From Plumapathes pennacea (taxonomy: Eukaryota > Cnidaria > Anthozoa > Antipatharia > Myriopathidae): a stretch of DNA of 64,000 bases. The stretch lies in the NCBI GenBank assembly GCA_964036295.1, contig OZ038463.1, positions 11,833,274-11,897,273 on the forward strand. The letters run 5' to 3'. Of this stretch, positions 9,913-51,495 are shown piece by piece. Position 1 is the first letter of the stretch. Each line of letters opens with the position of its first letter. The position numbers and the translations under genes were made by a program. The notes beneath the pieces were generated by a model, which was given only the letters and a program-made list of their open reading frames with translations, was not told the DNA's origin and made no database searches.

Positions 9913-11905
9913 ATGAGGCAGAGGCAGCTGTTTGCTTTGATAGCCGTACTTACGGTTTGTAGTATCCTACCTTCTAGCGACGCCTTCACTGCAGGGGCTG
10001 GGAATATCAAGAAAAGAGATTTTGTACAGGTAATAGTTATTTTGCTCCTCCTTTTCATAAACTCAGTCCTCTTCAGACGTTGAAATCAAGCTTGATAGCT
10101 TATATCTTCTGGTTTCGTTTTGGGGGGTCTCTGTTCATCCACCGAATTGTGGTGGCTGGGTGACTATTATTATTGCGGTGAGTTTGTGTTCACGGAGAGC
10201 TTTTTTGCAATTTCTTCAAACAGTTGAAATGTTCGCCTCAAAGAGGAGAATGTGTGGTTTAAAAATATCGTACTATTATTAACGGACCTTCAGGTTAAAA
10301 AATGTGCTATTTGGATGTTCAGAAGGAAAATTTCGCCACATTTTTGTGTAGATGCTTAAAAAGAAAGAGAAAAAGAACTAAAAAAAAAAGAAAGAAAAAA
10401 GAAAAAGAACCCTGTTTTCTTAAAAGAGAGAAAAAAAATCAGAGCGTTAATGCAATATTACTTTGAGAGAGAAAACTTGTATTACCGTGTCAGCAAGACC
10501 TGATACGTAGACAAAAAAATCTATTTCAGTTTCAGACCAAGTGTTTTTGTTTTCATCGTCACTCTCAACAACATTATTTCTCAGTCGACGGGGTGCCAAA
10601 AGTTCAGGGTCAGTCGATATTTTGTTCAATTGGCTCCCACCATATTTTTCCTAATTTCTTCAAACTTGTTTGGCTAAAATTTATGACACTGATATTTGAT
10701 AAACGTCTAAATTTCCTGATGAACGTACAGATGCGTCGACTGAAATGACCGGTTCGTAAATACACATGTAAAAATGTGCTTTCTTGCACTCTTACTATTA
10801 ACTTTAATTTAGGCAAAAAGACTATGGCTTAATTTCGGCAGATTTTAGTTAATTGAATCCTCGGTTGCCATAATTAGTTGATTTAAGCCCACTGTCTGTC
10901 CAGTATGAAAAAATAGAAACACTAATGTGGCCAAATACCAAGTCTGGATCGACAGACTTACGAGTGACTGGCACGCGTCCACACTGTCAAATGAGTCAAG
11001 AGAAAAATGAAGCTATGATTGATAATCAATCTATAAACTCGATCTCAGAGTGCAGATCTAACTGCTTGAATGTGTGAGAACGGGACCTAAGAGTTTTTCG
11101 CACTAATGGTGGACGTCGTAGCACTTAGCGAGAAGATGTCAAAGTGGCTGCGCATTTGCAACAAATTATATTACTTTACTCACTTTTCGAAGGTAAAGGC
11201 CAAAAAAAAAAAAAAAAAAAAAAATCTGATGACTTGTTTTTTGTTTTGTTTCGTTTAAATCATGAAAATCCAGACGTCCGTGAGATGAAAGACTGTCCAA
11301 TTTAAAATCCTAAATCCACTTGTTCGTTGCTGGTTCGGGTCCCATCTCCCGAGCTTTGTGCCCTTTTAATCATCCCAAAACTGACACGAACTGCTAGATT
11401 GCTTTTCGTATTATTGTCGAAAATAATCGTGTGATTTCTTTGGTTTTTCAGCGTTCACTACTCTGACGTTTAGTAGTAATCTTGGCCCATCAAAAGCAAA
11501 AGCAAAATTCATTCTTAAGGAAAAGGCAACCAAGTGGCGATGGCGCTTCCTCGCATTGCCGATTGTCTTTTCTTTTCCTTTTTTCTTTTTTTTTTTTTTC
11601 TGTTCAATCTTTAACAAGTAAAACCAATTGCTTTTAAAATTTATTTCTGATAGGTTGAAAGTGCTTCTTACAGCCCGCTGTTATTGGTGGTGCTCTAATC
11701 TATTGGTTTTGGCTTTCAGAAAGTAGTCCAAAAACGGCTTAAAATTAGAACATGTCGTAAGTGCTAAAACACGCCTGTTATTTTCTATTTGATGTTTATT
11801 TAGGCTGCCAGGAGTTTGGATGCCGTCTGCAACGTTGCCCGGTCTGCTTGTTCCAAAATGGAGACCAGAGGGTTCGAACACAAGGAACTGATGACCGAAG
11901 AATAG
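9913..11905 (+). CDS. Small secreted CX6C peptide precursor, 72 aa (family member 1)
   Basis: Two exons, 9913-10029 and 11804-11905 (stop), joined by a phase-0 GT-AG intron. Exon 1 gives a 39-residue segment: a hydrophobic signal peptide (residues 1 to about 24, ending SSDA), then FTAGAGN with a dibasic KKR at 33-35. Exon 2 gives AARSLDAVC at 40-48 and CNVARSAC at 48-55, a cysteine pair spaced by six residues, then a charged tail ending LMTEE. The architecture, intron phase and both motifs match the loci at 16.2, 34.7, 38.3 and 50.1 kb, which is the main support for two such small exons. I do not recognise the family. Secretion is inferred from the signal peptide; KKR may be a processing site. 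Confidence 0.75.
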
Positions 11906-12135
11906 CTGCATTACATTGCTAACCATACCTATAAAGCATGTGCCTAAACACCTCGTACGATTTGCACGTGAAGAAGAAACATGATATCTTGTTCTTTTTT
12001 TTGCAAAAGCATCATAAATATGTCCTATTTGAAGTAAACTCTGTGAATTTTCGTATGATTCACCTACTCAGAATAAAAAAATGCAAAGAACAAAAAGAAA
12101 AGAGAAGAAAGTATGCCTATTCAGTGTCGGACTGT

Positions 12136-50073: not shown

Positions 50074-51495
50074 ATGAACAACAAGATCTTTGTGTTTTGC
50101 TTGGGGGCTCTGCTTCTACTATTGAACTTTTCACAAAGTGAAGCTTTCACGGCGGGATTTGGAGCAAACGGTCGGAAACGAGCATTAGGCGATAGTAGCC
50201 GACAGCAGGTAAGTTGTATTCCATATAGTGAATACATGCACAAATTTAGCCATGAGTTAGTGTATGAAATTAAAAAAAAAAAAGAATGGCATCAAAACTA
50301 TGGTTCTATTCAATCAAAAAAATAAAGATTTTCTATAGAAAGAGAGGCTGTGCATTGAACCGCCTATTTCGGCAGAGTTCTCGCACTTTCACCGCCAGCG
50401 GAGTTTGCAATGGGTACTCGGTCTTAGTATGTCAAACTCGTCCAACCTGTTGAATTATGACTACGTGAACTATACTCAAATGAAATCCACTTGATAGTGT
50501 TCGCAAATGTTTGCGTTGCTTTTGAGCGTAAGCTCACGATTGTTTGCTTTTTTGAAGTTTTGAGTTTAATTTAGAAAGATAATTATAATAAAATTAAAAG
50601 AAATGTTAACGTATGAGGATTCGCTGAAGGGGGTTACGCCTTTGCACTGGTTGTAATTAGGAGACACAGTTTGAGAAAAATCAAAGCCAGGTTCAAAATG
50701 ACGTATTCAAAACAATGGGAAAAGTTCACTCAGCAGCTGTTCTTTGATTAATTTTCAAAGGTTTTATTTTATCAAGTTGGTTTGTGTTTACAGTGTGTAT
50801 GTGATATCTTTCATTTTTTAATTGTTTCTTAAAACGTGAACAGCTAGTAACGTGGCTGGAAAGGCCGACAATAATTGTCTTATAATAATGAACGCGCCTG
50901 TTTTATGATGTTTCATTTCTCAGCATGGTGCAGAATAATTTTGATTGGACGTTTAGCTCGCGTAAGATAATCACAGTTTCAGGCAAACCTTTCTGTACGT
51001 CTTCATCATATCTAAATTGATCAATATAATTATAAACTAAGTTAAAGATGGAACTTTGAAAGATACACATATTTTACTATAATTCACACACTCAGCACAG
51101 CGCTTTTCAAACCTTTCCAACTTTGGGCTTCAGTATATCAATTATAGTCGCGGACATTCTCTACTATTTTGTTTTGTGTAAGCCTCTATCAGCAGAAAAG
51201 CTTCTCACGGTGAGGGATAATTCAGTTTTGCGGGTTGTCTTTGGCTTTATAAAAACATTAGTTTGCGGATTGTAATCTAACTGTTAGTAATTCATGAATG
51301 TCTATCAGTTTACCTCGAGTCATTTTTTACAGTCAGTCGTTGATCTTTTTTCTTGTACATCTTAACTAAATTTAAAATTTTTGTGTTTCTCAGGTTTCAC
51401 GAAGTTTGGAGTCTCTCTGCCAAGCCGCGATATTACATTGCTCAGGGAGGGCAGTGAGAAGTCTTAACGACAAAGATACTACCAACATACAATAA
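50074..51495 (+). CDS. Small secreted CX6C peptide precursor, 78 aa (family member 5)
   Basis: Exons 50074-50208 and 51394-51495 (stop), phase-0 intron with a GTAAGT donor. Exon 1 (45 residues): signal peptide with core LGALLLLLNFSQSEA, then FTAGFGANGRKRALGDSSRQ. Exon 2: VSRSLESLCQAAILHC with CX6C at 54 and 61, then a short charged tail ending TTNIQ. Combines the FTAG start of members 1 and 2 with the SLExLCQAA block of members 3 and 4, linking the subfamilies. It lies outside the tandem blocks, beyond the dual-CRD gene. RKR at 34-36 is a possible processing site. Function unknown. Confidence 0.8.

Follow-up and report, generated by a model that had tools for sequence, protein, structure and literature searches.

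Two-exon genes of Plumapathes pennacea that probably encode single-copy precursors of short secreted peptides

Gene models in the window

A stretch of 64,000 nucleotides of the Plumapathes pennacea genome, located at 11.83-11.90 Mb of contig 2 (hereafter the window), was analyzed, and the 290-Mb assembly of 24 contigs was searched for related sequences. The window carries small genes of one plan, here called the FTAG family, which probably encode single-copy precursors of short secreted peptides. The original prediction, made from the letters of the window, had described five intact two-exon genes, and all of them (A, B, C, D, and F) could be rebuilt from the DNA. Each consisted of two exons joined across a GT-AG intron in phase 0; the first exon encoded F-[TG]-[AP]-G-x-G and the second L-[DE]-x-[LIV]-C-x6-C (5/5 for both motifs).

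The five genes lie on the plus strand. In gene A, exon 1 (9913..10029) encodes a signal peptide of 24 amino acids (aa), the predicted peptide FTAGAGNI (9985-10008), and the cleavage site KKR, and exon 2 (11804..11905) encodes the LDAVCNVARSAC module and a tail, giving a protein of 72 aa. In gene B, exon 1 (16236..16370) holds a signal peptide of 27 aa, the predicted peptide FTAGVGNI (16317-16340), and GKR, followed by exon 2 (17133..17312) with the LDNICSVAKETC module and a long tail; the protein has 104 aa. Genes C (exon 1, 34706..34825; exon 2, 35536..35661) and D (exon 1, 38287..38406; exon 2, 39117..39242) each encode a protein of 81 aa with a signal peptide, the site GR, and the LEALCQAARSVC module plus a tail, the predicted peptides being FGPGFGSKH (34778-34804) and FGPGWGSKH (38359-38385), respectively. 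Gene F encodes a signal peptide, the predicted peptide FTAGFGAN (50146-50169), and GRKR in exon 1 (50074..50208), and the LESLCQAAILHC module plus a tail in exon 2 (51394..51495), for a protein of 78 aa.

The exons and upstream DNA of genes C and D were near-identical, and the identity of their introns was 0.52. An inverted stretch in the intron of gene C may explain this low value. By eye, the stretches at ~34960-35410, inside that intron, and 24550-24900 were alike in inverted order, possibly a small DNA transposon. A sixth copy, E, is broken. Its exon-1 remnant (~41947..42067, plus strand) is without ATG at the aligned start and has a stop immediately after FAPG, and its exon-2 remnant (~42696..42820, plus strand) shows a frame shift past the CX6C stretch; the limits of both were set by eye, and the end of the second is approximate.

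Furthermore, the minus-strand gene J, overlooked in the original prediction, was found in the window. Its exon 1 (13844..13951) encodes a signal peptide, the predicted peptide QPFYLGQRQ, GKR, and then DF, and its exon 2 (13242..13337), joined in phase 0, encodes the WLCGWASAVC module and a tail. Judged from its letters, the peptide QPFYLGQRQ-GKR could be pyroglutamylated and amidated. A scan for the whole architecture (signal peptide, F-x-x-G, dibasic site, phase-0 donor, and a C-x2-A-x3-C exon), which was designed after the genes were known and with J in view, returned the exon-1 starts of four genes (A, B, F, and J). These formed six pairings, of which two used a second possible exon 2. The same scan gave zero matches in 100 dinucleotide shuffles of the window. 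Genes C and D, which have the site G-R, were not covered, as the scan demands a dibasic site.

The genes had been said to surround, on one strand, a glucose-6-phosphate isomerase gene and a dual-CRD gene. The strand held for the Fz frames and the five genes, which are on the plus strand, and failed for the isomerase-like exons, which are on the minus strand. Fz domains (Pfam PF01392) were matched in two frames between copy E and gene F, at 45414-45944 and 46554-47078 (plus strand), with expectation values (E) of 4.2e-10 and 1.6e-8, respectively. In the interval from gene B to gene C, exons at 23312-27846 on the minus strand, with motifs at 23443, 25983, and 27810, are taken to be glucose-6-phosphate isomerase-like. 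In addition, a frame at 3074-3445 (plus strand) carries a partial astacin metalloprotease domain (PF01400, E 1.7e-11).

Members elsewhere in the genome and in other species

Across the assembly, 11 intact genes were found, which is a lower bound: six in the window (A, B, C, D, F, and J) and five outside it (G, H, I1, I2, and I3), the latter also with a phase-0 intron. Gene G lies on the minus strand of contig 2, 8-10 kb beyond the window, and encodes FTAGAGYY-GKR with LSLLCEAANLHC. Gene H on contig 5 encodes FTAGIGNV-GKR with LDNTCKVAFEAC. On contig 11, I1 (FTAGGGGNIP-RRKR with VRDMCQATREHC) has I2 (FSPNMQ-RQKR) and I3 (FSGNIP-GRKR) beside it, the three being tandem paralogues at L049 (C11:2432500-2442400). 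Exon 2 of I2 and that of I3 differed by one residue, and their predicted peptides were unlike (FSPNMQ and FSGNIP), as if mainly the putative released peptide were being diversified. The family had been described as a cluster and is not confined to it: members occur on at least three contigs and in two other species.

When proteins D, A, B, and F served as tblastn queries, the window copies and a single weak match (L011, inspected on one strand only) were returned. The Desmophyllum relative described below returned gene A and, at E 0.026, a contig-11 locus later shown to be I1. The motif A-F-T-A-G-x-G occurred at 38 places, against 5 for the control; six were family genes, 21 were reverse-transcriptase sequence (17 read, four assessed solely by the 20 letters that matched), and the remaining 11 were other sequences. 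The AFTAGSG loci such as L019, L025, and L038 (DKAKTAFTAGSGLYQF) are presumably retrotransposon-like reverse transcriptases, and the presence of this string in reverse transcriptases is a trap for motif searches of the family. Other candidates were rejected. Three matches on contig 8 (L040, L041, and L042) are three tandem copies encoding a membrane-like, hydrophobic protein that contains AFTAGTG but does not belong to the peptide family; two on contig 12 (L050 and L051) were fetched and are not family members; and the weak match L066 had no family-like signal-peptide frame. Moreover, leave-one-out profiles of the exon-2 core were run against a six-frame set of 225,232 residues. A, B, G, F, and C/D were the best new matches (E < 0.05), and I3 (E 0.14) and I2 (E 0.25) came just before the best unrelated frame (0.27).

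Profile searches covering 5.8 billion proteins, a check proposed with the original prediction, found full-length homologues in two species. OS493_005055 from the deep-sea coral Desmophyllum pertusum (P0001, E 2.1e-12 with profile A1) and AIPGENE2390 from the sea anemone Exaiptasia diaphana (P0002, E 8.8e-12 with profile A6) are complete two-module precursors, both hypothetical proteins without a name or function. Profiles A1 and A5 matched Desmophyllum only; profile A6, built from I1 and I3, matched Exaiptasia and four short unnamed entries carrying the exon-1 peptide only: FTAGGGGNIPGA-GKR (two entries), FTAGGGGNIPGGV-GKKR, and FTAGGGGNIPGGY-GKKR. The short entry P0006 terminates in MVS and P0005 continues from there, a pattern that would fit read-through of a phase-0 intron starting GT[AG]AG. 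The claim of an undescribed secreted-peptide family with two separately conserved modules was supported: a different exon 2 joined to such a signal peptide was looked for in the two full-length homologues, and both join the same two modules. Searches of main texts for short peptide strings and for both protein names gave no relevant match and no description of the FTAG peptide design; a supplementary listing may exist. The sole text match to the peptide strings was an unrelated Toxoplasma wall protein.

Predicted peptide and exon-2 module

The cut positions of the signal peptides were set by the -3/-1 rule only. With these positions, Ala was the last signal-peptide residue in 12/12 distinct signal peptides (the cut in J being placed before Gln), and the -3 position fitted in 10 of the 12. 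Phe is the predicted mature N-terminus, encoded in 10/11 genes (Gln in J) and in 6/6 database relatives. As read from the sequence, a single peptide copy directly follows the signal sequence in 11/11 genes. A basic site stands right after the peptide in all 11, 6-10 residues on; in the six relatives the distance is 8-13 residues. Gly comes just before this site in 8/11 genes and 5/6 relatives. The site of C and D, K-H-G-R, has a basic residue three positions ahead of the cut. In Nematostella, mass spectrometry showed amidation as well as cleavage on the C-terminal side at KR, RR, KK, and Rxx-R (PMC11087051). C and D fit the Rxx-R rule with Lys replacing Arg. By net charge (K+R minus D+E), 11 of the 14 predicted peptides listed were neutral.

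Between species, no other part is as well conserved as the exon-1 peptide. Between A and Desmophyllum P0001, identity was 7/24 in the signal peptide, 13/13 in FTAGAGNIKKRDF, 8/19 in the linker plus CX6C, and 1/16 in the tail. Between I1 and Exaiptasia P0002, it was 10/25 in the signal peptide, 10/10 in FTAGGGGNIP, and 8/16 in the exon-2 core.

The Cys spacing of six was present in 11/11 genes and the two full-length relatives; F-x-x-G-x-G is lost in some members (I2, I3, and J). Ala occupied the third position past the first Cys in 10/11 genes (Thr in I1). The positions -4 (hydrophobic in most; L), 0 (Cys), +3 (Ala), and +7 (Cys) share one helix face. AlphaFold2 gave P0002 a single continuous helix over residues 39-66, with a predicted local distance difference test (pLDDT) score of 70 and 74 in the blocks of 41-60, from 14 alignment rows of which 12 had just one module (mean pLDDT 65.4, predicted template modelling score (pTM) 0.34). 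In such a helix the two Cys would be kept from bonding with each other, which would favour a disulfide-linked dimer of helices over an intrachain ring.

Interpretation and comparison with known peptide systems

The family is probably best explained as single-copy precursors of short, often amidated secreted signalling peptides, probably neuropeptides or epithelial peptide hormones. Signal peptidase would cut after Ala, leaving Phe as the N-terminus, and a prohormone convertase would cut at KR, KKR, GRKR, or GR, 6-13 residues downstream. Where a Gly stands ahead of the basic residues, it would yield a C-terminal amide, as in FTAGVGNI-NH2, FTAGIGNV-NH2, and Exaiptasia FTAGGGGNIPGA-NH2, and the released peptide would act on a receptor. 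By analogy with luqin, the exon-2 L-x-x-x-C-x2-A-x3-C may stay as a helical companion in folding, dimerization, or sorting to regulated secretory granules. The related ligands of the family would have arisen by gene duplication and later changes in the peptide that is released. This explanation is based on the 11 genes with a common plan, the conservation of the peptide, the Gly-basic sites, the neutral peptides, and the parallels in anemones and luqin.

The closest kind are the single-copy Antho-RNamide, Antho-RIamide, and Antho-KAamide neuropeptides of sea anemones. Each of their precursors has one peptide directly past the signal sequence; its first residue is encoded as Phe and converted to phenyllactyl, and its C-terminus is amidated (PMC7523074). 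The LRWamides are likewise single-copy past the signal sequence, with a mostly Gln N-terminus, and the RNamide and LRWamide families have paralogous genes (PMC7523074). The FTAG family resembles the Antho peptides in its single peptide after the signal sequence (11/11) and the encoded Phe (10/11); the amidation Gly is present in 8/11 genes and missing in A, I1, and I2. However, its peptides read FTAGxG..., FGPGxG..., or similar, and not LRN, YRI, FKA, or LRW; FLRN, FYRI/FYRV/FYKI, and FFKA occurred in 0/11 predicted peptides. By these sequences, the FTAG peptides are not members of the Antho-RNamide, Antho-RIamide, and Antho-KAamide families.

In the luqin precursors of bilaterians, the peptide is followed by G-KR and, further on, by a Cys pair for which a role in processing or sorting has been suggested (PMC5940834). 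The FTAG family shares with luqin/RYamide the order of signal peptide, peptide, G-KR, and C-terminal Cys pair. However, the luqin Cys spacing is typically 10, and that of the FTAG family is six in 11/11 genes (PMC5940834). The C-terminal RFamide, RWamide, or RYamide is also missing, as the predicted peptides of the 11 genes end in NI, NV, YY, AN, KH, IP, MQ, or RQ, and the likeness to luqin is one of layout. Neuropeptide S has an N-terminal stretch with F-x-x-G-V-G. NG-peptide precursors have a cysteine-rich companion, in the starfish a neurophysin of 14 Cys (PMC4772807). The putative companion of the FTAG family is a CX6C helix instead, and the apparent likeness to neuropeptide S and NG peptides is short.

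Several observations weigh against precursors of signalling peptides. At -3 of the signal peptide, G carries N and H carries M, and the amidation Gly is missing in A, I1, I2, and the Desmophyllum relative. Between the youngest copies, the ratio of nonsynonymous to synonymous substitution rates (dN/dS), based on few sites, was 0.68 (C/D) and 0.82 (I2/I3), a sign of weak constraint. In the leave-one-out profiles, I1 (E 2) and H (E 1.7) ranked behind unrelated frames, and J was not recovered by the exon-2 profile of the others (rank 154); J is therefore a family member by plan only. The exon-2 module is conserved too (8/16 between I1 and Exaiptasia) and may be more than a spacer. In addition, nearby duplicates accompanied by a broken copy are a pattern more typical of genes for defence or venom than of one for a conserved hormone.

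A second reading is a chain that stays uncut at the basic site, in which the mature ligand is the whole protein past the signal peptide, the free N-terminal Phe motif serves as an activation arm, and the helix dimerizes through the two Cys. The two modules do occur together in 11/11 genes and both full-length relatives, with L, C, A, and C on one face of the continuous helix 39-66 modelled for P0002. However, the number of residues separating the basic site from the exon junction is variable (3 to 9), the tails differ, Gly-basic signatures recur despite changing surroundings, and the AlphaFold2 model is of modest confidence. We consider such a chain unlikely.

The tandem and broken copies, together with the modest dN/dS and the basic linkers and tails, might instead point to tandemly expanded host-defence (antimicrobial) or venom peptides, as might a Conotoxin profile match below threshold (E 0.078). 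With just 2-3 Cys after the signal peptide, the FTAG family differs from the cysteine-rich toxins of cnidarians. Short, neutral peptides with glycine make up most of those predicted, and no residue of the exon-1 peptide differs between the species compared. The Pfam scan of five window proteins gave weak matches only (best E 0.013), and in that of seven proteins (one repeated) all matches were below the family cut-offs, the best being Gastrin (E 0.013) and Conotoxin (E 0.078). The NCBIfam scan of four proteins gave nothing above cut-off, and the profile had 0 matches in the PDB at E up to 10. A defence or venom role appears decidedly unlikely. A disulfide-closed CX6C ring released from exon 2, with the FTAG stretch as propeptide, is highly improbable despite the spacing of six in all 11 genes and both full-length relatives, as its inner residues are variable except Ala, it is without consistent flanking basic sites, the FTAG stretch is better conserved between species, and the Cys are probably too far apart within the predicted helix for a same-chain bond.

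For precursors of signalling peptides, a further step may be suggested tentatively by the anemone analogy. The encoded Phe might become L-3-phenyllactyl, giving phenyllactyl-TAGxGNI-amide-type peptides, some 10 paralogous ligands sorted by a disulfide-linked CX6C helical dimer; this is possible rather than probable.

Published screens seek repeated peptide copies or use known-peptide queries (PMC7523074; PMC11087051), and one peptidomic target list demanded Pro or Gln near the N-terminus (PMC6756747). A single-copy, Phe-initial peptide easily escapes such screens. The Nematostella study also combined a NeuroPID list with mass spectrometry (PMC11087051), which could in principle have caught such a peptide.

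If processed as proposed, the family would add about 10 candidate ligands in the Plumapathes pennacea genome, plus an Exaiptasia relative suited to direct testing. If the phenyllactyl form is also true, it would represent a hexacoral peptide system in stony corals, where phenyllactyl peptides have been reported as not found.

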